Of a stretch of DNA of 38,806 nucleotides, positions 188 through 26,734 are shown piece by piece. Each line of letters begins with the position of its first letter. Position 1 is the first letter of the stretch. The stretch lies in contig JAVCDD010000232.1 in NCBI GenBank assembly GCA_030765125.1, positions 1 through 38,806 on the forward strand. The letters run 5' to 3'. A program made the position numbers and the translations under genes. Source of the stretch: Candidatus Hatepunaea meridiana (GTDB lineage: Bacteria > Electryoneota > AABM5-125-24 > Hatepunaeales > Hatepunaeaceae). The notes under the pieces were generated by a model, which was given only the letters and a program-made list of their open reading frames with translations, made no database searches and was not told the DNA's origin.

Positions 188-3142
188 ATGTTACAAATCG
201 GTAAAACACTACACGGTTTCCGTTTAATAGAACAGAAAGAAATCGTCGAAATAAATTCTATCGCAAGATTATTTGAGCATATCCAAAGCGGCGCGCGCCT
301 GCTTCATCTTGAGAATGATGATGATAACAAGGTATTTTCCATTGCTTTCAAGACTCCTCCCCACGACAGCACAGGAATTCCGCATATTCTGGAACATTCC
401 GTTCTGTGTGGATCGCGAAAATTTCCTACAAAAGAACCTTTTATAGAGCTAATGAAAGGTTCGATGAACAGTTTTTTAAATGCCTTCACGTCGTCTGATA
501 AAACCATTTATCCTGTTGCCAGTAAAAATGACAAGGATTTCGTCAATCTGATGAATGTTTATCTGGACGCAGTTCTATTTCCCAAGATATACGACATACC
601 TGAAATCTTTATGCAGGAGGGATGGCATTATGAACTTGATGATAGAGACGGTGAATTAACTTATAAGGGTGTGGTCTATAATGAAATGAAAGGCGCCTTT
701 TCCTCCCCTGAATCTGTCCTGGGACGAAAGATACAGGAGACGCTCTTTCCTGACACTTCTTATGGTTTCGAATCCGGTGGTGACCCGGATGTAATTCCAG
801 ATCTTAGGTATCAGCAGTTCACAGCATTCCATAAGAAATACTACCATCCAGCCAACAGTTATATCTTTCTATACGGCAACGGCAAGCTTGAAGAGCATCT
901 GAAATTTATAAACAGTGAATATCTTCGGCATTTCGACAGGATAGAGATAGACTCAAGTATACGGGAACAGAAACCGTTCGCTGCCCCACGAGAGGTTGTT
1001 GTAGAATACCCTATTTCACCTAACGAAGTTGAAAATGACAAGACCTATTTAGCCCTGAATTTCGTAGTTGGGCATTCTTCGGATCCCCTAATTCATTTAG
1101 CATTTGGTATATTAAAGCATTTATTACTAGATACACCTGCTGCTCCACTGAAAAAAGCCATGATTGACGCTGGTATTGGAAAGGATGTTTACGGAAAATT
1201 TGATAACATAATGCAGCCAACCTTCAGCATTATCGTGAAGAAATCCTCTTTAGAGTTGAAGGAAAAATTCAAGGATGTCGTATTTGAGTGCTTGCAGGAT
1301 ATTGTCAAAAATGGTATTAATGAAAAACAATTGGAAGCCTCGATAAACATCCATGAATTTCTGCTCAGAGAAGCGGATTTCGGTGATTGGCCAAAGGGCG
1401 TTTTATACAGCTTCAATTCCTTAGTTAACTGGCTGCACGGTGGCGACCCAACATTGCTTCTTCAATATGAGCGAACGTTAAAGGAAATCAAATCGAAAAC
1501 GGCATCATCGCGTCAGGTGAAAACACCTGACGCAACAGTAGGGTTTTTCGAGGGATTAATTGAGAAGCAACTATTGAATAATAACCATCGCAGCCTGCTG
1601 ATCTTAAAACCTCAAAAGGGCTTAGTTGAGGAAAAAGAGAAGGAAACAAAGAAGAAACTTGCAGATTACAAGGCAAGTTTATCGGAAAGGGAATTGGATG
1701 AGATTATTAAACAAACACAAACACTGAAGTTACGACAGCAGACGCCTGACACTCCTGAAATCCTGGAAACCATCCCGATGCTGTCATTGAAGGACATCAA
1801 TCCTCAAGCTGAAAAGCTCCCATTAGTTGAAAAGGAAATTGACGGCGTCAAAGTATTAACACACCCAATGTTCACAAACAATATTGGTTATCTTAATCTA
1901 TATTTTAACACAACTTGCGTACCGCAGAAACTAATACAATACATTCCATTATTGGCTCGCGTGTTAGGAAAGGTAGATACAACCAATTATAGTTACGGTG
2001 AGCTTTCCAATGAGATAAATATCCATACCGGTGGGATTGGTTGCTCAACGGGAATCTTTCCAGAGAAGGATACAGACGAAAAGTATCATCCTATGTTCAA
2101 AGTAGAATCAAAGGTTCTAATGAACAAGCTTCCCGTTCTTCTTGAGTTGATAAAAGAAACGCTCGTCAATAGCAAGTTGAACAATCGAAAACGTATCAAA
2201 GAGATAATTCAGGAAACCAAATCCCGACTGGAAATGGGTCTTTCCTTTCACGGTCACCTGTTTGCAATCAAACGCGCATTTTCCTATTTCTCACAGTCCG
2301 GAAAATATACTGACTTAATAAACGGATTATCTTTCTATAAATTCATTGCAGGTTTGGAGAATAACTTTTCAATGAAAGAAAGCGAGATCATCGCAAACCT
2401 TAGTAAAATTGCAGAATTCATCTTTAACAGAAACAACTTATTGGTAAGCTTCACATCAGCAGAAGATGGTTATAGTAAGTTGAAGAATGACTTCGGAATA
2501 TTGCTTGATGATCTAAACGTAAGTAAACTTGAAAAGATTGATTATAATTTTGATCTTTCACGAGATAATGAAGGATTAATGACCCCAGGCAAAGTTCAAT
2601 ATGTTGCAAAAGCATATAATTACAGACGTTCAGGAAAACAATACAACGGTGTAATGCAGATATTAAGGAAAGTCATCCAAAGGGATTACCTATGGAATCG
2701 CATACGCGTACAGGGTGGCGCCTATGGCGCTTTTATGGGATTTGCCAGAGACGGTAGTCTGTATATGGGATCATTTCGCGATCCGAATTTAGTGGAAACG
2801 CTGGAAACATTCGATCAAGCAGAAGAATATATTCGTAATTTTGAGACTTCTTCACGAGAGATGACTAAATATATCATCGGAACTATAAGCGACTTTGATA
2901 AACCATTAACGCCGTCTATGAAGGGTGAATTTGCAACCGCGAATTATATCTCGCATATTTCTCAAAATGATATTCAGAAGGAACGAGATGACGTATTAAA
3001 TGCAACCCCAGAGGAAATTCAACAATTTGCGGATGTTGTAGGTGAAGCGATGAAACATAATTATTTCTCAGTACTTGGGAATGAGGGAAAGATAACTGAC
3101 AATAAGAATGTTTTCGGGAAATTGGTAAATGTGTTTGAGTAG
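188..3142 (+). CDS. M16C (presequence protease/PreP-like) zinc metallopeptidase
   Basis: A 984-residue peptidase of the M16C subfamily, which degrades peptides inside a closed two-half chamber. The inverted zinc motif HxxEH is present as HILEH (H66, E69, H70), and the distal zinc ligand E166 lies in the sequence GVVYNEMKGAF, at the spacing expected for M16. The length fits the fused two-half M16C form (PreP, Cym1, HypA) rather than the 400-residue bacterial M16B enzymes. A lysine- and glutamate-rich linker (about residues 465-545) separates the halves. An AGGA Shine-Dalgarno element precedes the ATG. No signal peptide is visible, so it is probably cytoplasmic and recycles peptides. A perfect 24-nt palindrome lies inside the gene (1510-1533). 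The family call is firm; the exact substrate is unknown. Confidence 0.95.
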   Translation: MLQIGKTLHGFRLIEQKEIVEINSIARLFEHIQSGARLLHLENDDDNKVFSIAFKTPPHDSTGIPHILEHSVLCGSRKFPTKEPFIELMKGSMNSFLNAFTSSDKTIYPVASKNDKDFVNLMNVYLDAVLFPKIYDIPEIFMQEGWHYELDDRDGELTYKGVVYNEMKGAFSSPESVLGRKIQETLFPDTSYGFESGGDPDVIPDLRYQQFTAFHKKYYHPANSYIFLYGNGKLEEHLKFINSEYLRHFDRIEIDSSIREQKPFAAPREVVVEYPISPNEVENDKTYLALNFVVGHSSDPLIHLAFGILKHLLLDTPAAPLKKAMIDAGIGKDVYGKFDNIMQPTFSIIVKKSSLELKEKFKDVVFECLQDIVKNGINEKQLEASINIHEFLLREADFGDWPKGVLYSFNSLVNWLHGGDPTLLLQYERTLKEIKSKTASSRQVKTPDATVGFFEGLIEKQLLNNNHRSLLILKPQKGLVEEKEKETKKKLADYKASLSERELDEIIKQTQTLKLRQQTPDTPEILETIPMLSLKDINPQAEKLPLVEKEIDGVKVLTHPMFTNNIGYLNLYFNTTCVPQKLIQYIPLLARVLGKVDTTNYSYGELSNEINIHTGGIGCSTGIFPEKDTDEKYHPMFKVESKVLMNKLPVLLELIKETLVNSKLNNRKRIKEIIQETKSRLEMGLSFHGHLFAIKRAFSYFSQSGKYTDLINGLSFYKFIAGLENNFSMKESEIIANLSKIAEFIFNRNNLLVSFTSAEDGYSKLKNDFGILLDDLNVSKLEKIDYNFDLSRDNEGLMTPGKVQYVAKAYNYRRSGKQYNGVMQILRKVIQRDYLWNRIRVQGGAYGAFMGFARDGSLYMGSFRDPNLVETLETFDQAEEYIRNFETSSREMTKYIIGTISDFDKPLTPSMKGEFATANYISHISQNDIQKERDDVLNATPEEIQQFADVVGEAMKHNYFSVLGNEGKITDNKNVFGKLVNVFE
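1510..1533. repeat. Perfect palindrome inside the M16C coding sequence
   Basis: GCGTCAGGTG and CACCTGACGC form a perfect 10-bp stem around an AAAA loop. The element is read in frame as roughly SSRQVKTPDAT, just before the linker between the two halves of the peptidase. It looks like an intergenic-type palindrome carried within a gene, comparable in principle to in-frame palindromic elements known from Rickettsia (RPEs), though with no sequence relation implied. Confidence 0.7.
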
Positions 3143-3154
3143 GATTAAGAAAAT

Positions 3155-3365
3155 AAGCAAGTAAGAAAGTAACAAAGTGAGAAAGTAACAAAGTGTGAAA
3201 GTGTGAAAGTGCGAAAGTGCAGTCAGGGACGGTGCCCCGACAGCAGGATGTCTGGTGATGCTGTCACCTCAGCGGTTTGTCAGCCAGAGTTTAATTAACA
3301 ACCAGAATGACTTTCTCACTTTTATACTTTCGCACTTGCACACTTGTAAACTCGTAAACTTGCTA
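3155..3365. repeat. Inverted pair of 8-bp degenerate tandem arrays around a structured spacer
   Basis: The left array (3155-3220) contains eight consecutive 8-bp units such as AAGAAAGT, GAGAAAGT, GTGAAAGT and GCGAAAGT, keeping AAAGT (CAAGT in the first unit) while the first three bases vary. The right array (3310-3365) contains seven 8-bp units in the opposite orientation, such as ACTTTCTC, ACTTTCGC and ACTTGTAA. Between them lies an 89-nt spacer with a 7-bp stem (GACAGCA at 3239, TGCTGTC at 3259) and a GGGAC/GCCCC-rich segment. The right array ends 10 bp before the TTG start of the next gene, which has no clear Shine-Dalgarno sequence. I do not recognise this as a named element. Confidence 0.85.
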
Positions 3366-3375
3366 ACAAATTAAA

Positions 3376-5421
3376 TTGACATTTCTTCATACAATATTCC
3401 TCGCTGTCCTGATTGCTTCAGCGATTCCTATTCTATTGCATATATTTAGTCGGCAGCGATTGCCACTGATTAAGTTTAGTAGTTTGGAATTTCTGAAGAA
3501 ACTCCAGAAGCGGAAAACCCGGCGCGTTAAACTGAGACAGCTTATCCTGCTTGCCATCCGAACGCTGGCGATAGCGGCACTGGTGATGGTCTTTGCACGT
3601 CCGGCGCTTCATAGTGGGGAGGCATCCGGCTCGGCAGCCTCTGTAGAGATGGTTATCATCCTCGATAATGGAATTCATTCATCAACCGAATCCAGAGATG
3701 GGCAATTGTTGAAATTATCGGTTGAGGTTTGCCGTCAGCTTGTTGAGCTTGCCGGACGAGGTGATAGAATTACGCTGATTCCTTCTGCGTTACCACGTCG
3801 TACATTTACCGTTCCCGCTGGACAACGCGAACTGATTGTCGACAGACTGGCGGGGATAGAACCCCAATTCACAGCGCCTGACTATGATCGGTCTATTGCA
3901 ATCGCTGATTCCATATTCAGTACATCTGACCTTTTCAACCGTGAATTATATCTTATAAGCGGATTCTATGGTTCTAATTGGGATTCCCTCGATATTAATC
4001 CTTCCACCGATAAAGTCCGTCGTTTTATCTTTCCGGTCGGACAGAAAGTTCTGGATAATCTATCGGTTTCACAAATCAGGTTGAAGAACAGTATCATACA
4101 GCGCGGCGATCCCGTTGAGTTTGAGGTTGTATTCAATAATTATTCCAAACGGAGTGTTGATGACGTTTTGGTCAGCCTGTATCTCGATGATGAACGGGTT
4201 GCTCAAGCGTCTTTGAGCATACCGACGGATGGTGTCGTCACTAAAATATTCTCTGTTGTACCAGAGCATTCCGGTTTGATTGCCGGCAAAGTAAAGATTG
4301 AGGACATAGATCCGTTGCCTGTTGACTCACGTCGGTTCTTCACTTTGAATATCCCTGATAGTTCGCGTGTACTTTGTGTTGCTCCGGCAACTGTGGACAG
4401 CATTGTTCTATCAGCAGCGTTATCGGGCGGTAATACGGATTTCATACGACTATACTGGGGAGATCGAACCGGCTGGGAGACGGGTTCATTGGCGGGTTAT
4501 GATGTCTTGTTGCTTGCCGGGGTAAATTCCGTTTCAGCCGGCGCTGCTGAGCGGGTTGGTGAGTTTGTCAAGCAGGGTGGGGGAGTAGTCATCTTCCAGG
4601 GAAAGGATTCGGATCTGGCGGAACTCAGTCGTTCATTATGGCAGCGACTCGGCTTTGCAGGCGCCAGAGGAACGATACAGGATGGCAGTATAGGTTGGGG
4701 AAAGTTCGACCTGCAGCACCCGCTCTTTCGCGGAATGTTTGATAAAACCGGATCCCCTAGATCCCCCTCGATCACGTTTGCGGTTGATCTGGCTATCGGA
4801 AAAAACGATCAGGTGATAATTCCCTTATCGAACGGACGACCATTTCTGCTTGAACGTCAGGTTGGCAGGGGCAGAGCGTTGATGTTTTCAATACCAATTA
4901 GCGCTGAAGGTGGAAGTTTTATCTATTCAGGTATGGCTGCACCTCTTATTTTCAGGGCTGTCGGATATGTAAATTCCGTTAGTGAGGAGGGTATTAGTGA
5001 TTGGACAACTGGAAGTAATGAGCGTATTCTGCTGTCATCTCCGCAAGCCGTAACGGCGCGGTTAGAGTTCCCTGATGGTGATTTTACGGATTTGCCTCCA
5101 AGATCAGTGGTAGGCGGTGTTGAATATCAAGTATCCCGTATAAACCTGCCTGGAGTTTATAATCTGAAATTGAACAAGCAGATTACCGCTCGCTATGCTG
5201 CAAATATTCCTTTAGGTTGGTCGGATTTGCAAAAAATTGATTTGGACAAGTTCTCAAAAAGGTTTAATTGTATTATATTAAAGAGCGATACTGGCGATCT
5301 CAACGAAGCTGTCTACACCGCTCGTTTCGGACGTGAGCTATGGCACCCGATTGCAGTGATATTTCTATTGTTGCTCGTGGCTGAGTCGTTGATTGGAAGA
5401 GCGTGGAGAAAGAAAAGATAG
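3376..5421 (+). CDS. BatA-type membrane protein with degenerate VWA and glutamine-amidotransferase-like regions
   Basis: A 681-residue protein beginning with the typical BatA N-terminal domain: a first membrane helix (about 1-22), a basic stretch with KLQKRKTRRVKLRQ, and a second helix (about 54-76). A von Willebrand A-like region follows, but its metal site is degraded: the expected DxSxS reads DNGIHSS (about residue 95). Around 375-420 there is a class I glutamine-amidotransferase-like segment (DVLLLAGV ... GGGVVIFQG), a combination known in BatA-like proteins. A final membrane helix near 658-675 ends in a basic tail. The topology suggests a large periplasmic part. It starts at TTG; no earlier in-frame start gives a better N-terminus. 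No MoxR or other Bat genes are adjacent, so its partner is unknown. Confidence 0.85.
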   Translation: MTFLHTIFLAVLIASAIPILLHIFSRQRLPLIKFSSLEFLKKLQKRKTRRVKLRQLILLAIRTLAIAALVMVFARPALHSGEASGSAASVEMVIILDNGIHSSTESRDGQLLKLSVEVCRQLVELAGRGDRITLIPSALPRRTFTVPAGQRELIVDRLAGIEPQFTAPDYDRSIAIADSIFSTSDLFNRELYLISGFYGSNWDSLDINPSTDKVRRFIFPVGQKVLDNLSVSQIRLKNSIIQRGDPVEFEVVFNNYSKRSVDDVLVSLYLDDERVAQASLSIPTDGVVTKIFSVVPEHSGLIAGKVKIEDIDPLPVDSRRFFTLNIPDSSRVLCVAPATVDSIVLSAALSGGNTDFIRLYWGDRTGWETGSLAGYDVLLLAGVNSVSAGAAERVGEFVKQGGGVVIFQGKDSDLAELSRSLWQRLGFAGARGTIQDGSIGWGKFDLQHPLFRGMFDKTGSPRSPSITFAVDLAIGKNDQVIIPLSNGRPFLLERQVGRGRALMFSIPISAEGGSFIYSGMAAPLIFRAVGYVNSVSEEGISDWTTGSNERILLSSPQAVTARLEFPDGDFTDLPPRSVVGGVEYQVSRINLPGVYNLKLNKQITARYAANIPLGWSDLQKIDLDKFSKRFNCIILKSDTGDLNEAVYTARFGRELWHPIAVIFLLLLVAESLIGRAWRKKR

Positions 5422-5436
5422 TAGCTGAATTTTCCT

Positions 5437-5496
5437 ACCGCAGAGATCGCAGAGACCACAAAGTGTTAACTCTGTGTTCTCTGTGATCTCTGCGGT
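5437..5496. repeat. Inverted pair of 9-bp tandem arrays (CGCAGAG type)
   Basis: Three 9-bp units (ACCGCAGAG, ATCGCAGAG, ACCACAAAG; 5437-5463) face three inverted units (CTCTGTGTT, CTCTGTGAT, CTCTGCGGT; 5470-5496) across a 6-nt loop. Together they can form a nearly continuous 27-bp stem. CGCAGAG-containing 9-mers resemble repeats I have seen in intergenic DNA of several environmental bacteria. It lies between the BatA-like gene and the LVIVD gene and could act as a processing or transcription-attenuation hairpin, but there is no T-run. Confidence 0.8.
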
Positions 5497-5527
5497 GAAG
5501 TTTTAGACTTGCAAACCGGAGGATAAT

Positions 5528-7672
5528 ATAAACTGCCTAATCACCTTTATAGTAACTCTAACAATGTTTTTATTATCAAGCAACATCTATGCGCAGGAAC
5601 ATGAAAACGTTGAACAGACAGGAAGAATTTTTAATTTTTGGGATGATGCAGAAGACGTTGTCATTCAAGGTGATTATGTATACATAGCTGCCGGAGTTTC
5701 CGGGCTTCAGGTTGTTGATATTTCGGATCCAGGACATCCGGAAGTTGCAGGTTATTGGGATGATAATCCCGGATACGCTGTAGGTGTTGCTGTAAACGGT
5801 GATTTTGCTTATCTCGCTGACAGTGAAAGTGGTTTACGAATAATAGACGTCTCCGATCCTCATAATCCCGACGAGGTTGGATATTATGATAATCGGGAGG
5901 ACGGGTGGTTTGAAAAAGTAGCAATTGACGGTGACTTTGTATATGTAGCTGACTGGAGAAACGGTTTACGAATAATTAATGTTTCCGATCCGCAGCATCC
6001 GGAAGAGATCGGATTCTTTGAGGCACAGGGTTGGCTGACAGACGTTGTTGTCAATGATAACTTTGCTTATGTGACGGATATTGAAAACGGTTTATTTATA
6101 ATTGACATCTCCAATCCGCAGCATCCAGCGGAGGTCGGACGATATGATATAGGAGGGGCTGCGAGTGGTATCGCTGTCAATGGTGATTTTGCTTATGTAG
6201 CTGGCGAAAACGGCTTAAGTATAATTAATGTCTCCGACCCGCAGCATCCAGAGGAGGTTGGATATTATGATAGTCAGGAAGAGCAGTGGTTTGAAGACGT
6301 TTTTGTAAACGGTAACTTTGCATACATAGCTGACTTTATAACCGGCATACGAATAATAGATGTCTCCGATCCACGACATCCTGATCAGGTTGGATATTGC
6401 AATACACCAGATTGGGCTACCGGCATTGCTGTCAACGGTGATTTTGCTTATGTGGCTGACAGTGAAAGCGGCTTGCGTATAATAGACATCTCTAATCCTC
6501 AGTGCGCTGAGGAGGTGGGATATTATAGTTCACCGGAGTCTGTTTGTGGCATTGCGGTCAATGGTGACTTTGCTTATGTGGCTCTTGGTGGCGACGGTTT
6601 ACGGGTAATAAACGTTTCTGATCCTCAGTATCCGGAGGAGGTCGGATATTTCGATAGTCAAGAGGAAGTGTTTATTGAAGATGTTGCCGTAAACGGTGAA
6701 TTTGCTTATCTCGCTGACGGCGAAAGCGGCTTACTCATAATTGATGTATCCGATCCTCAGCATCCCGATAAGGTTGGACAGTATCTTACAGCGGGGTATG
6801 CTCAGGATATTGCTGTCAATAGTGACTTTGCTTATATAGCTGATGGTGGCAACGGCTTACGTGTAATAGATATTTCCGATCCACGCCATCCCGACGAGGC
6901 AGGATACTTTTATACACCAGGGTCTGCCCTTGGCGTTGCTGTTAATGAGAACTTTGCTTATATTGCTGACGGTGGCTTACGGATAATAGACCTTTCCAAT
7001 CTGAATCATCATTATGAGACCGGGTACTATGGCACGCCTGGGAGAGCTTTGGGCGTTGCCGTCAATGGTAACTTTGCTTACATAGCTGATGGTGAAAGCG
7101 GTGTATGTATAATAGACGTTTCCGATCCGCAGCATCCTGAAGCTTTAGGGCAGTATGATACACCGGGACAGGCTGAGGATGTTGCAGTCAATGGAAACTT
7201 TGTCTATGTGGCTGATTATGAAGGCGGCTTACGCATAATAGACGTATCCGATCCGTATCATCCCAAAGAGGCTGGGTATTATTATACGCCGGGGAAGGCT
7301 TATAGTGTTGCATTTAGCGACGGTTTAACCTATATTGCGGACGAGACAAATCTTGGTATATACTGTTTCCGGTACGATGAAGCTACTGAAATGGAAACCA
7401 TGATCCCCAGCGGATTCTATTTATCTCAAGCTTATCCCAATCCTTTTAATGCCGTTACCTGCATAACTTATGGTTTACAGAAGGCTTCGAGGGTGACGTT
7501 ATGTATCTATAGTATTAACGGACGCTTAGTGACGACCTTGAAGGATGATTACCAAAAAGCCGGTCATTATACAGCTATCTGGTTTGCTGAGACTGCGCCA
7601 ACCGGACTATATTATATTAGAATGGAAGCAAAAGACTTTTGTTATGTCAGGAAGATTGTTTTAGTGAAGTGA
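5528..7672 (+). CDS. Secreted LVIVD-repeat (beta-propeller-like) protein with T9SS sorting domain
   Basis: About 13 LVIVD repeats of 40-45 residues, each with the pattern GDFAYVAD..GLRIIDVSDPQHPEEVGYYD, fill the protein up to about residue 610. A type IX secretion C-terminal sorting domain follows, with AYPNPFN, an IYSINGRLV-like core and a terminal KIVLVK. It is therefore probably exported through the outer membrane and surface-bound or released. The first ATG (5564) would leave only MFLLSSNIYAQ as signal peptide. Reading the same frame upstream gives a complete hydrophobic signal starting INCLITFIVTLTMFLLSSNI, and a GGAGGA Shine-Dalgarno lies at 5518-5523, 4 nt before an ATA codon at 5528. 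I therefore place the start at 5528 (ATA), with 5564 as the conventional alternative. The ligand or surface partner is unknown. Confidence 0.85.
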   Translation: MNCLITFIVTLTMFLLSSNIYAQEHENVEQTGRIFNFWDDAEDVVIQGDYVYIAAGVSGLQVVDISDPGHPEVAGYWDDNPGYAVGVAVNGDFAYLADSESGLRIIDVSDPHNPDEVGYYDNREDGWFEKVAIDGDFVYVADWRNGLRIINVSDPQHPEEIGFFEAQGWLTDVVVNDNFAYVTDIENGLFIIDISNPQHPAEVGRYDIGGAASGIAVNGDFAYVAGENGLSIINVSDPQHPEEVGYYDSQEEQWFEDVFVNGNFAYIADFITGIRIIDVSDPRHPDQVGYCNTPDWATGIAVNGDFAYVADSESGLRIIDISNPQCAEEVGYYSSPESVCGIAVNGDFAYVALGGDGLRVINVSDPQYPEEVGYFDSQEEVFIEDVAVNGEFAYLADGESGLLIIDVSDPQHPDKVGQYLTAGYAQDIAVNSDFAYIADGGNGLRVIDISDPRHPDEAGYFYTPGSALGVAVNENFAYIADGGLRIIDLSNLNHHYETGYYGTPGRALGVAVNGNFAYIADGESGVCIIDVSDPQHPEALGQYDTPGQAEDVAVNGNFVYVADYEGGLRIIDVSDPYHPKEAGYYYTPGKAYSVAFSDGLTYIADETNLGIYCFRYDEATEMETMIPSGFYLSQAYPNPFNAVTCITYGLQKASRVTLCIYSINGRLVTTLKDDYQKAGHYTAIWFAETAPTGLYYIRMEAKDFCYVRKIVLVK

Positions 7673-7704
7673 TGCTTGATGTAGTAATGTTGTGATGTTG
7701 TGAT
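7673..7704. repeat. 8-bp degenerate tandem array (GTTGTGAT type)
   Basis: Directly after the LVIVD stop codon are four 8-bp units: TGCTTGAT, GTAGTAAT, GTTGTGAT, GTTGTGAT. Same period and same position (3' end of a gene) as the arrays at 3155, 22231 and 23001, but a different core. Confidence 0.6.
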
Positions 7705-7758
7705 TAAAAAATCCTTGAAGGTAGTGACGCCCGTGATACTTGTTGATAAGTATACATC

Positions 7759-7800
7759 CAAAGACCAAAGACTAAAGACCTAAGACAAAAGACCAAAAGG
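7759..7800. repeat. 7-bp degenerate tandem array (AAGAC core) reaching the ribosome-binding site
   Basis: Six units in a row with a 7-bp period: CAAAGAC twice, then TAAAGAC, CTAAGAC, AAAAGAC and a last CAAAAGG. The final unit overlaps the AGGAGA Shine-Dalgarno sequence (7798-7803) of the AICAR formyltransferase gene, so changes in copy number or sequence could affect its translation. Confidence 0.7.
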
Positions 7801-7808
7801 AGACCCCC

Positions 7809-8984
7809 TTGTGCGCTAAAGAACTTCAACTTAAATACGGTTGTAACCCTCATCAAAAACCGGCGCGAATCTATGATAGAGAAGGATCACTTCCCGTGGA
7901 AGTGCTCAATGGCGAGCCTGGTTATATAAACATGTTAGACGCCCTTAATTCGTGGCAGCTTGTTAATGAGCTTAGTTCAGTTCTGAAATTGCCTGCTGCG
8001 GCTTCTTTCAAGCACGTCAGTCCGGCAGGGGCTGCTGTTTATGTGCCTCTTTCCGATAGGCTCCGTGAAGCTTACTTCGTTGATGGTATGGAACTTTCTG
8101 AGTTGGCGATAGCTTATGCCCGCGCTCGCGGTGCTGACAGGATGTCTTCCTTCGGGGATTGGGTGGCGCTTAGCGATGAGGTGGACGTCAGCGTCGCTAA
8201 GCTGCTGCGCCGTGAGGTTTCAGATGGAGTGATAGCCCCGGCGTTTGAACCGGAAGCTCTCGAAATTCTGCGTAAGAAGAAGGGGGGAAAATATCCTGTA
8301 GTCCGGATCAACACCAATTATGAACCACCTTATCAGGAGACTCGTCAAGTGTTCGGGGTTTCATTCGAGCAGAGAAGAAATAACCTCGTTATGAGCTATG
8401 AACATTTGAATGATATCGTTACTATTAATAGGGAGCTTCCTGAAACGGCACAGCGTGATTTAATCGTAGGGTTGGTAACGCTAAAATATAGTCAATCCAA
8501 TTCGGTCTGCCTTACTTATGACGGTCAGGTTATCGGCAACGGCGCCGGGCAGCAATCACGAATTCACTGTACACGATTAGCATCGGAAAAGGCTGTGAAC
8601 TGGTTCCTTCGGCAACATCCGGCAGCGTTGGATTTACCCTTTAGAAAAAAGGTAAAACGTCCTGATAAAAACAATGGTGTCGATCAATTTTTGCGCGATG
8701 ATTTAACTCCTGCAGAAGAAAGAGTGTGGCGGGAATTGTTTGATTTTGTACCACAACGGTTGAGCGGGGATGAGAAACGTAAATGGTTGCAAGGACTTGA
8801 CGGAGTGTCACTGACATCAGATGGTTTTTTCCCGTTCAGGGATAATATTGACAGGGCTTCGCGTTGTGGTGTGAAGTATGTCGCACAACCGGGTGGTTCT
8901 ATAGCTGATGAAGGAATAATAGAGGCTTGTAATGATTATGGGATGGCGATGGCGATAACGGGGGTAAGGTTGTTTCATCATTAG
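7809..8984 (+). CDS. Stand-alone AICAR transformylase (PurH-like C-terminal domain only)
   Basis: A 391-residue phosphoribosylaminoimidazolecarboxamide formyltransferase (EC 2.1.2.3), which transfers a formyl group from 10-formyl-THF to AICAR in the ninth step of purine synthesis. Visible family motifs are KYGCNPHQKPA near the start, SFKHVSPAGAA (the KH catalytic region, residues about 67-77) and IGNGAGQQSR. The enzyme lacks the N-terminal MGS-like IMP cyclohydrolase domain of bifunctional PurH (about 520 residues). It corresponds to the shorter stand-alone family seen in some bacteria, so the IMP cyclohydrolase must be encoded elsewhere. The start is TTG at 7809, five bases after AGGAGA. No other purine gene is adjacent. 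Confidence 0.93.
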   Translation: MCAKELQLKYGCNPHQKPARIYDREGSLPVEVLNGEPGYINMLDALNSWQLVNELSSVLKLPAAASFKHVSPAGAAVYVPLSDRLREAYFVDGMELSELAIAYARARGADRMSSFGDWVALSDEVDVSVAKLLRREVSDGVIAPAFEPEALEILRKKKGGKYPVVRINTNYEPPYQETRQVFGVSFEQRRNNLVMSYEHLNDIVTINRELPETAQRDLIVGLVTLKYSQSNSVCLTYDGQVIGNGAGQQSRIHCTRLASEKAVNWFLRQHPAALDLPFRKKVKRPDKNNGVDQFLRDDLTPAEERVWRELFDFVPQRLSGDEKRKWLQGLDGVSLTSDGFFPFRDNIDRASRCGVKYVAQPGGSIADEGIIEACNDYGMAMAITGVRLFHH

Positions 8985-8992
8985 TGCAGATT

Positions 8993-9080
8993 CATTGTCT
9001 CATTGTTAAATTGTCTCATTGTTACTATATAACAACCAAGCAATCTAACAATCTAACAATGAAGCAATGGAACAATGAAA
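8993..9080. repeat. Inverted pair of 8-bp arrays with CAATG core
   Basis: Four units in one orientation (CATTGTCT, CATTGTTA, AATTGTCT, CATTGTTA; 8993-9024) are followed, after a 16-bp AT-rich spacer that keeps the 8-bp phase, by five units in the other orientation (CAATCTAA twice, CAATGAAG, CAATGGAA, CAATGAAA; 9041-9080). The core is CAAT plus variable bases. The whole array fills almost the entire gap between the AICARFT and hflX genes. The unit CAATGAAA is exactly repeated at 22231-22254. Confidence 0.85.
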
Positions 9081-9120
9081 CCTGTTTTTATGGGGATCTG
9101 AAAACTATTAATATTCTATC

Positions 9121-10350
9121 GTGCCAGAAGAACACTTAGAAAAATCAATTATAATCGGCGTTCAGCGTAAAGGTGTGCCGTCCTGGGAGGTTAGTGATAA
9201 TCTGGATGAGCTTGAACAGTTAGTATATACTGCCGGAGGCATTGTGTTTCATCGCCTTGTTCAGAACAGACCATATCCGGATCCAGCTACTTTCGTTGGC
9301 ACTGGTAAAGTAAAATGGTTAGCCGGACAGGTTACAGCTAATGATATTGATCTGTTGGTTTTTGATGATGATCTGACCCCTGCGCAGGTTAGAAACCTCG
9401 AAAAACAGGTTTCCTGCAAGGTGATTGACCGCTCTGGATTGATTCTGGATATATTCGCTAAACGCGCTAAAACAAGAGAAGCCCGCATTCAGGTTGAGGT
9501 TGCCCAATTACTATACCTCAAGCCACGCTTGACCGGGCGTTGGCAGCATCTATCTAGGCAGGTGGGAGGCATTGGCTTTAGAGGTCCTGGTGAAACTCAG
9601 CTCGAGGTTGACAAGCGGGTTATCGGCAAACGAATCGGGCAGCTTCGTAAGGAGTTGAAACGGATAGAGAATGCTCGTTCAACACGTCGTAAACGAAGGC
9701 ATCACCTTTTCAAAGTAGCTCTGGTTGGATATACCAATGCCGGTAAATCAACTTTATTGAATGCTCTAACCCACGCAGATGCTTTTGTCGAGGATCGACT
9801 TTTCGCTACACTTGATCCAACCGTTCGCTCATTACGATTGGACAGCGGTAAGAAAATACTCCTAATTGATACGGTAGGATTTATCCGCAAACTGCCTGTA
9901 GACCTTGTCGCATCCTTCCGGAGTACGCTGGAGGAATCACATCAAGCGGATTTATTCCTCAATATTGTTGACCTTGCACATCCGCACTGGGAGGAGCAAT
10001 TCGCACGAACTGAAGAGGTGTTAAAAGAGCTTGAACTGGATAGTACACCCCAGATTCTTATATTCAACAAGGTTGATATAGTTAATGATCCGGTTTTGCT
10101 TGAAGGTTTGAGAAATCAATATCCGGAAGCATTGTTTATCAGTGCATTAAGAGGTATTAGGCTTTATGAAATCTCTAAAAGCATAGCGAGATTCGCTGAA
10201 CAGAAATGGGAGCGGGGCAGTAGGACTTTTCGACCTGATGAAGCAGAGGAAATTAAGGATTTTGAAAAAAAAGTCAGAATTATTGGTCGAAGTTTTAAAG
10301 ATGGGTTGATTTATATAGATTATCTTTTTAAGATAAAACCATGTCAGTAG
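9121..10350 (+). CDS. hflX: GTPase HflX
   Basis: A 409-residue HflX-family GTPase, which binds the 50S ribosomal subunit and splits stalled or hibernating ribosomes after stress. The N-terminal HflX domain (about 1-180) contains the family signature GPGETQLEVDKR (155-166), followed by the G domain with Walker A GYTNAGKST (203-211), the G3 motif DTVGF (250-254) and the G4 motif FNKVD (about 314-318). The length is typical, and a short C-terminal extension follows the G domain. The start is GTG at 9121. The gene stands alone between repeat-filled gaps. Confidence 0.97.
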   Translation: MPEEHLEKSIIIGVQRKGVPSWEVSDNLDELEQLVYTAGGIVFHRLVQNRPYPDPATFVGTGKVKWLAGQVTANDIDLLVFDDDLTPAQVRNLEKQVSCKVIDRSGLILDIFAKRAKTREARIQVEVAQLLYLKPRLTGRWQHLSRQVGGIGFRGPGETQLEVDKRVIGKRIGQLRKELKRIENARSTRRKRRHHLFKVALVGYTNAGKSTLLNALTHADAFVEDRLFATLDPTVRSLRLDSGKKILLIDTVGFIRKLPVDLVASFRSTLEESHQADLFLNIVDLAHPHWEEQFARTEEVLKELELDSTPQILIFNKVDIVNDPVLLEGLRNQYPEALFISALRGIRLYEISKSIARFAEQKWERGSRTFRPDEAEEIKDFEKKVRIIGRSFKDGLIYIDYLFKIKPCQ

Positions 10351-21394: not shown

Positions 21395-22252
21395 ATGAAA
21401 TCCGAGAAGAATAAACTCTTCTGTGGTGATAACTTAGATTTTCTGGTTGAGATGGAGAGGGAGAGTGTGGATCTGATTTACGTGGATCCACCGTTTTTCA
21501 GCAATCGGAATTATGAAATAACTTGGGGTGATGAAGCTGAGATAACCAGTTTTAAAGACAAGTGGGAAGGTGGAGTAAACGTCTATGTTGACTGGATGAA
21601 GCAACGAGTGATGGAACTTCATCGTGTGCTGAAACCTACCGGTTCTTTTTATCTGCATTGCGATTGGCATGCTGGGCATTATCTGAAAGTTATGTGCGAC
21701 GAGGTATTCGGGCAGAGCAATTTTCAAAATGAGAATATCTGGTGCTACCGAACCGGTGGAGCTTCAAAGAAGAGGTGGAGCAGAAAACACGATAGTATCT
21801 ATTTCTATACAAAATCAGGCAATTACAGTTTTAAACCGATTAAAGAAAGGATATATTATAAGAAACCTTTCTTTACCGACAAAAAGGATGACCAGGGAAG
21901 ATATTATGCAGACGTATTGCCGGTTGACTGGTGGGAAATAAAGGCTGTAATAAATGTATCAAAAGAGCGAATTAACTACCCCACCCAGAAACCGGAAGCA
22001 TTGCTGGAAAGGATTATCAAAGCATCATCAAATGAAGGCGACCTTATATTAGATGCCTTCTGCGGATGTGGAACTTCGTTGGCTGTCGCACAGAAACTTA
22101 GAAGGCGCTGGATAGGGATTGATGTTTTGCCATCAGCAATTGCTTTTACAATAAAACGACTTGCCGATATTAATGTAAGTCAAAAGGATATTGAATTTAT
22201 CCGAGTGCCTCAAAACGTGAATGATTTTAACAATGAAACAATGAAACAATGA
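21395..22252 (+). CDS. Orphan DNA methyltransferase, beta class (N6-A or N4-C)
   Basis: A 285-residue SAM-dependent DNA methyltransferase. Motif IV is DPPF (31-34), near the N-terminus, while SAM-binding motif I is DAFCGCGTS (220-228), near the C-terminus, an order typical of the beta class. NYPTQKP (about 194-200) is also characteristic. The target-recognition part should be about residues 105-190. DPPF rather than DPPY or SPPY leaves adenine and cytosine-N4 targets open. There is no restriction enzyme next to it, so it is an orphan or regulatory enzyme. It starts exactly one base after the atpH stop, and its last residues (ETMKQ) are encoded by a CAATGAAA tandem repeat. Confidence 0.92.
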   Translation: MKSEKNKLFCGDNLDFLVEMERESVDLIYVDPPFFSNRNYEITWGDEAEITSFKDKWEGGVNVYVDWMKQRVMELHRVLKPTGSFYLHCDWHAGHYLKVMCDEVFGQSNFQNENIWCYRTGGASKKRWSRKHDSIYFYTKSGNYSFKPIKERIYYKKPFFTDKKDDQGRYYADVLPVDWWEIKAVINVSKERINYPTQKPEALLERIIKASSNEGDLILDAFCGCGTSLAVAQKLRRRWIGIDVLPSAIAFTIKRLADINVSQKDIEFIRVPQNVNDFNNETMKQ

Positions 22253-22260
22253 AACAATTC
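22231..22260. repeat. 8-bp tandem array CAATGAAA at the methyltransferase 3' end
   Basis: Three identical units CAATGAAA and a partial fourth (CAATTC). The stop codon of the methyltransferase (22250-22252) lies in the third unit. The same unit occurs at 9073-9080. Confidence 0.8.
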
Positions 22261-22317
22261 ATTTTATGTATATTTATTGTATATTAAAGCAGATAGTTAA
22301 AGGGCATAAAGTAACCA

Positions 22318-22707
22318 ATGACCAATAGCACACAGCATTGGATCGAAAAGGCACAGTATGATCTTGGTACAGCCAACGCAATGCTTGACACAGGTCGCTA
22401 TCTATATGTACTGTTCTGTTGCCAACAAGCCATCGAGAAGGCGCTCAAGGCTATTATTTCAGAGCGCACTAACGAAATGCCGCCGCGTAGTCACAATCTT
22501 GCACGACTGGCGGAATTGGCATTTGTCGATATGTCGAAGGATCAGATGGAATTTGTTAATGATTTAACTACTCTTTACTTAAAAACGCGTTATCCTGAAC
22601 GAATGGAAAAGGCTGCTTATGAGGTGAATGCTCAAATGGCAGATGAAGCTTTCAATAAAATGAAGGAGATGTTTGAATGGCTGTCAGACTTACTTTATCA
22701 GAAGTAG
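22318..22707 (+). CDS. HEPN-domain protein (HEPN/MNT toxin-antitoxin, toxin side)
   Basis: A 129-residue HEPN-domain protein of the PF05168-like type: helical throughout, with FCCQQAIEKALKAII (about 34-48), a conserved His in PPRSHNLARL (about 57-66) and LYLKTRYPERM (about 88-98). In HEPN/MNT modules the HEPN protein is usually an RNase toxin or RNA-binding partner and is AMPylated by the MNT protein. The classic RX4-6H RNase motif is not obvious here, as the nearest Arg residues are at other spacings, so RNase activity is uncertain. It overlaps the MNT gene by 31 bp. Confidence 0.85.
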   Translation: MTNSTQHWIEKAQYDLGTANAMLDTGRYLYVLFCCQQAIEKALKAIISERTNEMPPRSHNLARLAELAFVDMSKDQMEFVNDLTTLYLKTRYPERMEKAAYEVNAQMADEAFNKMKEMFEWLSDLLYQK

Positions 22708-23030
22708 AAAAACGCGCCCAAAGGGCAGTATCTACTCTTTCTGAATATGCTTCGGTAGTTAGGGCATTTTTGTTTGGGTCTTATTTAGATGGACGAGCAG
22801 ATGAGTGGAGCGATATTGATATCGGAGTCTTCATCGAGGGATTGGAAAAATGGGATATTAAAAAGGAATTAAGGACAAGTTCCGATATTCGAATGAAAGA
22901 AGGATACGACATCGAATTGCATTTCTTCCCCGCACAGGCGCTGACTGACGCTGAGCCTGCGAGCTTTGCGGCTTATGTTATTAAGCATGGACGATCTGTT
23001 AAGTTGACAAGTGAGCAAGTGAGAAAGTGA
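22677..23030 (+). CDS. MNT-domain minimal nucleotidyltransferase (antitoxin side)
   Basis: A 117-residue protein of the minimal nucleotidyltransferase family. The signature GSx10DxD is complete: GS at 34-35, D46 and D48 (FGSYLDGRADEWSDIDIGVF). The third carboxylate is probably in YDIELHF. In characterised HEPN/MNT pairs the MNT enzyme adds AMP to the HEPN toxin and neutralises it. A strong GAAGGAG element precedes the ATG inside the upstream HEPN gene. The last codons (SEQVRK and the stop) lie inside an 8-bp tandem array. Confidence 0.9.
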   Translation: MAVRLTLSEVEKRAQRAVSTLSEYASVVRAFLFGSYLDGRADEWSDIDIGVFIEGLEKWDIKKELRTSSDIRMKEGYDIELHFFPAQALTDAEPASFAAYVIKHGRSVKLTSEQVRK

Positions 23031-23040
23031 GCAAGTTGAT
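23001..23040. repeat. 8-bp tandem array (AAGTGAG type) at the MNT 3' end
   Basis: Five exact-period units: AAGTTGAC, AAGTGAGC, AAGTGAGA, AAGTGAGC, AAGTTGAT. The stop codon of the MNT gene lies inside (23028-23030). The core is the same as in the left array at 3155-3220 (AAAGTGAG). Confidence 0.8.
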
Positions 23041-23367: not shown

Positions 23368-23397
23368 TTCATCTCGAAGCTTCGGGATTGAAACTTG

Positions 23398-23429
23398 GCA
23401 GCAACGCAATACAGCAATACAACAATTAA
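23398..23429. repeat. 8-bp tandem array (CAATACA type) just upstream of atpA
   Basis: Four 8-bp units: GCAGCAAC, GCAATACA twice, and ACAATTAA. It ends 25 bp before the atpA start and closes the accessory block between atpH and atpA. Confidence 0.65.
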
Positions 23430-23453
23430 AAAGCGCATTAAAGCAGGAAAGAT

Positions 23454-26518: not shown

Positions 26519-26734
26519 TTTAGTAGATGCGACACTCTTGTCGCATATTCGCAGTGAAATGTAATTCTGATGTTCATGCGACAAGAGTGTCGCATCTACT
26601 AAATACAACAACAATTAATCTTTTGTTCATGCGACAAGAGTGTCGCATCTGCTAAATACAACAACAATTAATCTTTTGTTTATGCGACAAGAGTGTCGCA
26701 TCTACCAAATATAAAAAGAATAAATCTTAAATAA
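26519..26734. repeat. Palindromic 53-bp tandem repeat array with inverted leading copy
   Basis: The palindrome ATGCGACA-AGAG-TGTCGCAT occurs at 26576-26595, 26629-26648 and 26682-26701, exactly 53 bp apart, each followed by CTACTAAATACAACAAC-type sequence (the third copy diverges). A fourth copy at 26527-26546 is in the opposite orientation and forms with the next copy a perfect 28-bp inverted repeat (26519-26546 and 26576-26603, 29-nt spacer). The array fills the gap between the lipoprotein gene and atpD, and could form several hairpins in the transcript. Confidence 0.9.

Follow-up and report, generated by a model that had tools for sequence, protein, structure and literature searches.

Short tandemly repeated repetitive sequences (STRRs) of cyanobacteria consist of tandem units of usually 7 bp, are intergenic and hairpin-forming, and their function is unknown (PMC2670836); STRRs inside RNase P RNA genes are indicated by the title of a further reference (Vioque 1997, cited in PMC4046671). 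Intervening sequences (IVS) of 23S rRNA with an S23 gene are described as selfish, horizontally acquired and excised by RNase III (PMC4990558). Gene-less 7-bp hairpins and S23-bearing IVS are thus known already. Many short intergenic arrays are also formed by the TAACTGA direct repeats of Beggiatoaceae and cyanobacteria, for which horizontal spread is suspected (PMC4679880). The S23 family (PF05635, 23S rRNA intervening-sequence protein) is a four helix bundle related to the solved structures 2gsc and 2rld. REPINs and MITEs are non-autonomous inverted-arm elements of fixed polarity which are more numerous than their putative mobilising gene. PF05635 is similar to Avd, which partners the reverse transcriptase of diversity-generating retroelements (DGRs; PMC10053308). 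In a literature search that covered few subscription journals and no bioRxiv preprints, no paper was found that links S23 genes with inverted arrays of short repeats; this is not proof of novelty.

The stretch of DNA analysed here (the window; 38,806 nucleotides) belongs to a metagenome-assembled genome of 5.3 Mb, in which it forms contig C84. In this window, the intergenic gap between an M16C peptidase gene and a BatA-like gene is filled by two mutually inverted arrays of 8-bp units with a spacer of about 90 nt (Table 1). The left arm contains eight clear units at 3155–3218, which read AAGCAAGT AAGAAAGT AACAAAGT GAGAAAGT AACAAAGT GTGAAAGT GTGAAAGT GCGAAAGT, and degenerate units extend back to 3144. 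A preliminary description of the sequence had reported eight units and seven inverted ones around a structured spacer of 89 nt, and the pair was confirmed at the stated place. The spacer holds a diverged dimer of REP-like palindromes. The constant AAAGT core given in the preliminary description had to be shortened to AAGT, as the preceding base is A or C and most right-arm units have CAAGT. Folded as RNA, the pair reaches −73.3 kcal/mol compared to −50.5 ± 4.2 kcal/mol in shuffles (z −5.4), and no Rfam family matches it. The 90-nt loop contains no ORF and no S23 gene, and it holds the REP-like palindromes rather than a remnant of S23. A CRISPR-like array was rejected, in agreement with the preliminary description, because the 8-bp units follow each other without spacers, whereas CRISPR repeats have about 20–50 bp and unique spacers.

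Table 1. Positions of the inverted pair, its neighbouring genes and the further arrays in the window.
Feature	Position	Strand	Remarks
M16C / PreP peptidase gene	188..3142	+	upstream gene; left arm directly after its TAG
Left arm	3144..3219	+	8-bp units (A/C)AAGTNNN, family AAGT; starts 1 nt past upstream stop codon
REP-like palindrome	3220..3243	.	in loop; diverged copy of 24-nt palindrome (CTGTCAGGGACGGCGCCCTGACAG family)
Second REP-like palindrome	3261..3283	.	in loop; diverged; 41 bp from the first, forming a dimer
Right arm	3310..3367	-	seven inverted 8-bp units, same AAGT family as left arm
BatA-like protein gene	3376..5421	+	downstream gene; TTG start 9 nt past right arm
Period-7 array (CCAAAGA)	7758..7797	+	before purH-like ORF
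Second gene-less inverted pair	8991..9082	.	AACAAT family, polarity TTGTT ... AACAA; flanked by a purH-like and an hflX-like gene
Single AACAAT-family array	22222..22263	+	before HEPN/nucleotidyltransferase gene pair
Single AAGT-family array	22997..23040	+	overlaps end of nucleotidyltransferase gene
Single AACAAT-family array	23397..23432	+	before ATP-synthase alpha/beta-family gene

Some of the further arrays in the window lie at gene junctions of their own. The genes for BatA and hflX are adjacent in four relatives with gaps of 45–100 bp, while in the window (3376–10350) they are separated by an LVIVD-repeat gene and the purH-like gene, with arrays of 7- or 8-bp units at two of the new junctions. 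The toxin-antitoxin-like HEPN/nucleotidyltransferase pair (22222–23040) has an AACAAT array on one side and an AAGT array on the other. A search for an empty counterpart of the window copy gave none, the M16-BatA pair not being syntenic in the relatives examined, and the BatA neighbourhoods of relatives showed no clear arrays. As 112 kb around BatA from S23-rich relatives contained no arrays, array abundance is not general.

To describe the arrays genome-wide, 1.18 Mb from about 100 contigs of the host were scanned; part of this sample had been chosen for prior array matches, so that densities are somewhat inflated. The scan yielded 123 period-8 and 30 period-7 arrays, while a Markov/shuffled control gave none, and the other periods were nearly absent (one array of period 5, none of periods 10 and 11). 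Further copies, the lack of which the preliminary description had regarded as counting against its reading, are thus present, and random drift, its other counter-condition, does not account for the arrays. With looser settings, 173 arrays were classified into four unit families (AAGT 92, AACAAT 65, CAACAT 9, CGACAC 7) compared to one array in the shuffled control. The preliminary description had also raised the question whether the arrays always form inverted, intergenic pairs. This proved to be partly the case: 128 arrays were intergenic, 25 partially so and 20 called inside genes, most of the latter in ORFs that we judge overlong or doubtful, and 85 of the 173 arrays had no same-family neighbour within 700 bp at the detection threshold used.

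Where inverted arrays lie less than 200 bp apart, their order is fixed. All 21 AAGT pairs have AAGT first and ACTT second, and all 15 AACAAT pairs have ATTGTT first and AACAAT second; seven other close neighbour arrays have the same orientation. In other genomes, inverted close pairs show one polarity by 6:0, and the polarity in the host and in these genomes is that of S23-bearing elements. An equal stem would result from the opposite arm order, so that the fixed order suggests shared ancestry or specific recognition. In a permutation test, AAGT arms matched the partner at their own locus more closely than partners elsewhere (p 0.0006), while the result was not significant for AACAAT arms (p 0.17). 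A wobble test for selection at the RNA level gave no signal, with 70 wobble-compatible versus 83 opposite arm differences, so that the similarity of the arms may be maintained at the DNA level, e.g., by template switching.

PF05635 genes were detected in 31 of 39 genomes of the host phylum and in none of 14 control genomes. They are flanked by mutually inverted arrays of 7 or 8 bp, the unit of which differs by locus (e.g., GCTATAG...CATAGCC, TCGGTAG...CTACCGA, and AGTCAGAGG...TCTGACA). For quantification, 102 distinct S23 loci from the host phylum, other phyla, and plasmids were compared with 705 control genes, all from the host genome, using the 99th percentile of mismatched loci as cut-off. 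Upstream and downstream flanks matched in inverted orientation above this cut-off at 75 S23 loci but only 10 control genes, and the inverted flank was absent at 27 of the 102 loci. Both flanks were periodic with the same period, almost throughout 7 or 8, at 56 S23 loci versus 12 controls. The upstream arm was purine-rich at 64 of the 75 loci with inverted flanks, and when S23-bearing elements are folded, the stem encloses the gene.

In the host genome, three of the four unit families bracket S23 genes: AACAAT on contig C198, and CGACAC and CAACAT on contig C381. On the latter (3395–4825), two consecutive S23 genes with CGACAC and CAACAT arrays are found, the second of which is interrupted (two pieces). 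An AAGT-armed S23 gene was not found in the host genome, which is 92% complete. In the relatives G003, G008, and G012 (loci L253, L263, L267), AAGT arms flank S23 genes with the purine arm first, i.e., with the polarity of the window copy. The AAGT pattern was present in 8 of the 39 phylum genomes, all of them S23-bearing (8/31 versus 0/8), which is weak evidence. In S23-lacking genomes of the phylum, 387 kb contained no arrays of period 7 or 8.

Filled and empty sites were found on cyanobacterial plasmids. In Calothrix NIES-22, an S23 insert is located between an integrase gene and the next gene, and Nostoc carneum, Tolypothrix, and Aulosira have no insert there. Similarly, Picosynechococcus PCC 7003 has an S23 insert between cas10 and cmr3 which PCC 7002 lacks. 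A further site, which follows a TraM-like gene, is occupied in N. edaphicum and Nostoc C052 by an S23-bearing element whose arms are of the GGGAACA type. In Nostoc ATCC 53789 this site holds a gene-less hairpin (folded computationally), the left junction of which is nearly identical, and in Nostoc C057 there is no insert, so that full and gene-less forms share one site. The junctions of the plasmid inserts show no clean target duplication, and some bases are replaced. The direction of change, gain or loss, is judged from the many empty relatives. Taken together, the S23 association and the filled and empty sites support mobility of the class. This was one of the readings offered in the preliminary description, and it is strengthened for the class, no empty counterpart having been found for the window copy itself.

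S23 genes were also observed inside CRISPR operons, between cas10 and cmr3 as well as between cas6 and cas4 (L358 783–1139; L360, L352). They look like inserts, which may explain the place of the family in lists of CRISPR-linked genes (PMC10910872). For annotation this means that an S23 gene between cas10 and cmr3 should be taken as an insert and not as part of the CRISPR system.

Across phyla, a strict AAAGTGYG pattern matched 81 stretches, most of them from one Gemmatimonadetes genome; the taxa comprise Gemmatimonadetes, Planctomycetota, Verrucomicrobia, Elusimicrobia, Cloacimonadota, Lentisphaerae, Calditrichaeota, Enterovibrio, and others. PF05635 genes were present in 17 of 19 genomes with AAAGTGYG arrays and in 0 of 14 control genomes, yet two genomes (Enterovibrio, Halieaceae) have such arrays without an S23 match. 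In the Gemmatimonadetes genome, the arms of S23 genes (AGTGCGTG) match its gene-less arrays. The arrays of Gemmatimonadetes 0707_bin15 (loci L161–L240) grade from AGTGCGAA to AGTGCGTG units, and many contigs of this bin end inside AAAGTGCG arrays, which seem to break assemblies. Conservation of the DNA around the arrays across phyla was rejected, as long DNA matches between genomes are the arrays themselves and not their flanks. A virus-borne element was rejected as well, since the AAAGTGYG array had no match in 2.9 million viral contigs.

The window pair is probably a gene-less and non-autonomous derivative of a hairpin element of the S23 type, its loop containing a dimer of REP-like palindromes. 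By the definition used here, a full element would consist of a 7- or 8-bp array, an S23 gene and an inverted array of the same unit, with a stem closing over the gene, and copies without the gene would retain a short loop between arms of constant polarity. The window copy has the inverted arrays of 7/8-bp units as well as the family and polarity of S23-bearing elements; for its lack of the gene, the hairpin of Nostoc ATCC 53789 is a precedent. It would derive from an AAGT-armed S23 element, the gene having been lost or never present, and would depend on S23 supplied in trans. The weakest step is a tentative one, namely that S23 might bind the folded stem in trans and help to copy the hairpin into intergenic gaps, possibly at replication forks or with the aid of a reverse transcriptase. 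Such copying is proposed because of the resemblance of PF05635 to Avd; as the host genome also has reverse transcriptase genes, copying through RNA would be conceivable. Replication slippage would then alter the arm length, and template switching across the hairpin would keep the arms matched.

In an alternative without any element, replication slippage would have expanded an 8-bp microsatellite, and template switching at a stalled fork would have produced the inverted arm. This would accommodate the arm lengths and unit mixtures that vary between loci and the exact mirror arms, including the variable bases, at some loci (L068 14988–15065, L122 12468–12536). We consider it improbable, because the same few unit families recur at more than 100 unrelated sites, the polarity is fixed, S23 genes are bracketed by arrays, and sites are found filled and empty. 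Slippage, which the preliminary description named as a possible origin, is plausible as a secondary process altering arm length but leaves the fixed polarity, the inversion and the S23 bracket unexplained.

A functional RNA hairpin of the host, acting as terminator, transcript stabiliser or translational coupler as suggested for cyanobacterial STRRs (PMC2670836), is unlikely, even though the stems are strong and tightly placed between co-directional genes. Divergent gaps hold arrays about as often as gaps of the genome in general (16 of 68 versus 99 of 528), many arrays are unpaired, and wobble pairs in the S23 sense are not in excess. The structured RNA considered in the preliminary description is possible in view of the strong stem but not favoured by the arm differences, which show no excess of G-U-compatible ones with respect to the S23 sense strand. 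A hairpin role could have been acquired after insertion.

That the pair is a REPIN or MITE moved by a REP-associated tyrosine transposase, with the arms as by-product, is hardly to be expected despite the REP-like palindromes in its loop and the RAYT-like Y1 transposase genes of the host genome, because 48 of the 58 CTGTCA REPs are over 150 bp away from any classified array, REPs are present in the loops of few array pairs, none are located next to the four Y1 genes inspected, one of which has another REP family, and the arms go with S23 genes instead. The 58 stricter copies of this 24-nt palindrome (CTGTCA...TGACAG) in the 1.18 Mb, often dimers about 41 bp apart, with 10 copies within 150 bp of classified arrays, appear as a second, separate repeat family, being mostly far from arrays. 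Another palindrome, GCGACA....TGTCGC, is present in four copies at 26529–26699 of the window, three of them in 53-bp tandem. Elsewhere it forms 48-bp-spaced dimers, and five copies beside a Y1 (RAYT-like) transposase gene (L371) suggest a RAYT-REP pair.

Returning to the S23-type hairpin element, there is an even chance that a single widespread class of mobile hairpin elements has the S23 genes of bacteria as its coding part, and STRRs, rRNA IVS, and arrays like those in the window would be gene-less or specialised forms of it. One origin is thereby proposed for STRRs, the S23 genes scattered in genomes and rRNA, and the inverted octamer arrays of uncultured phyla. If a single class exists, its ends would be inverted 7/8-bp arrays with a locus-specific unit and no conserved sequence, so that structure and period, not sequence, would serve for their recognition. 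S23 proteins would then act in the mobility or maintenance of a minimal hairpin element, and cultured cyanobacteria would offer a testable system.

Compared with the known systems, REPINs (named in PMC3116915) and MITEs resemble the window pair as gene-less inverted-arm elements of fixed polarity but differ in that the arms here are arrays with an element-specific unit, for which no transposase was found. In contrast to Avd in DGRs, the S23 genes described here stand alone, with neither TR/VR repeats nor an adjacent reverse transcriptase in evidence. The TAACTGA repeats are likewise short intergenic tandem arrays common to several phyla, but they consist of a single fixed heptamer, are almost never inverted and have no reported S23 link. 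The preliminary description knew of no named element of this form; the 7-bp STRR hairpins of cyanobacteria, however, are a named relative (PMC2670836). Like STRRs, the window pair consists of short tandem units, is intergenic and forms a hairpin, and the GGGAACA arms of the Nostoc plasmids have STRR form. Differences to STRRs are the unit of 8 bp instead of the usual 7, the hundreds of arrays in the host, the lack of an S23 link for STRRs in the papers searched, and the host itself, which is not a cyanobacterium but belongs to a phylum that includes Ca. Tariuqbacter arcticus (NCBI: Ca. Electryoneota), the S23 matches of relative G012 having the same positions as those in the genome of Tariuqbacter record L166. 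In contrast to the IVS, which are located in rRNA and have, in Coxiella, a stem of a 28-bp inverted repeat, the elements described here lie between protein genes and have 7/8-bp arrays as arms; the window pair, too, is not in 23S rRNA but sits between two protein genes. The IVS and the S23-bearing elements agree in having a stem of inverted repeats that encloses an S23 gene.
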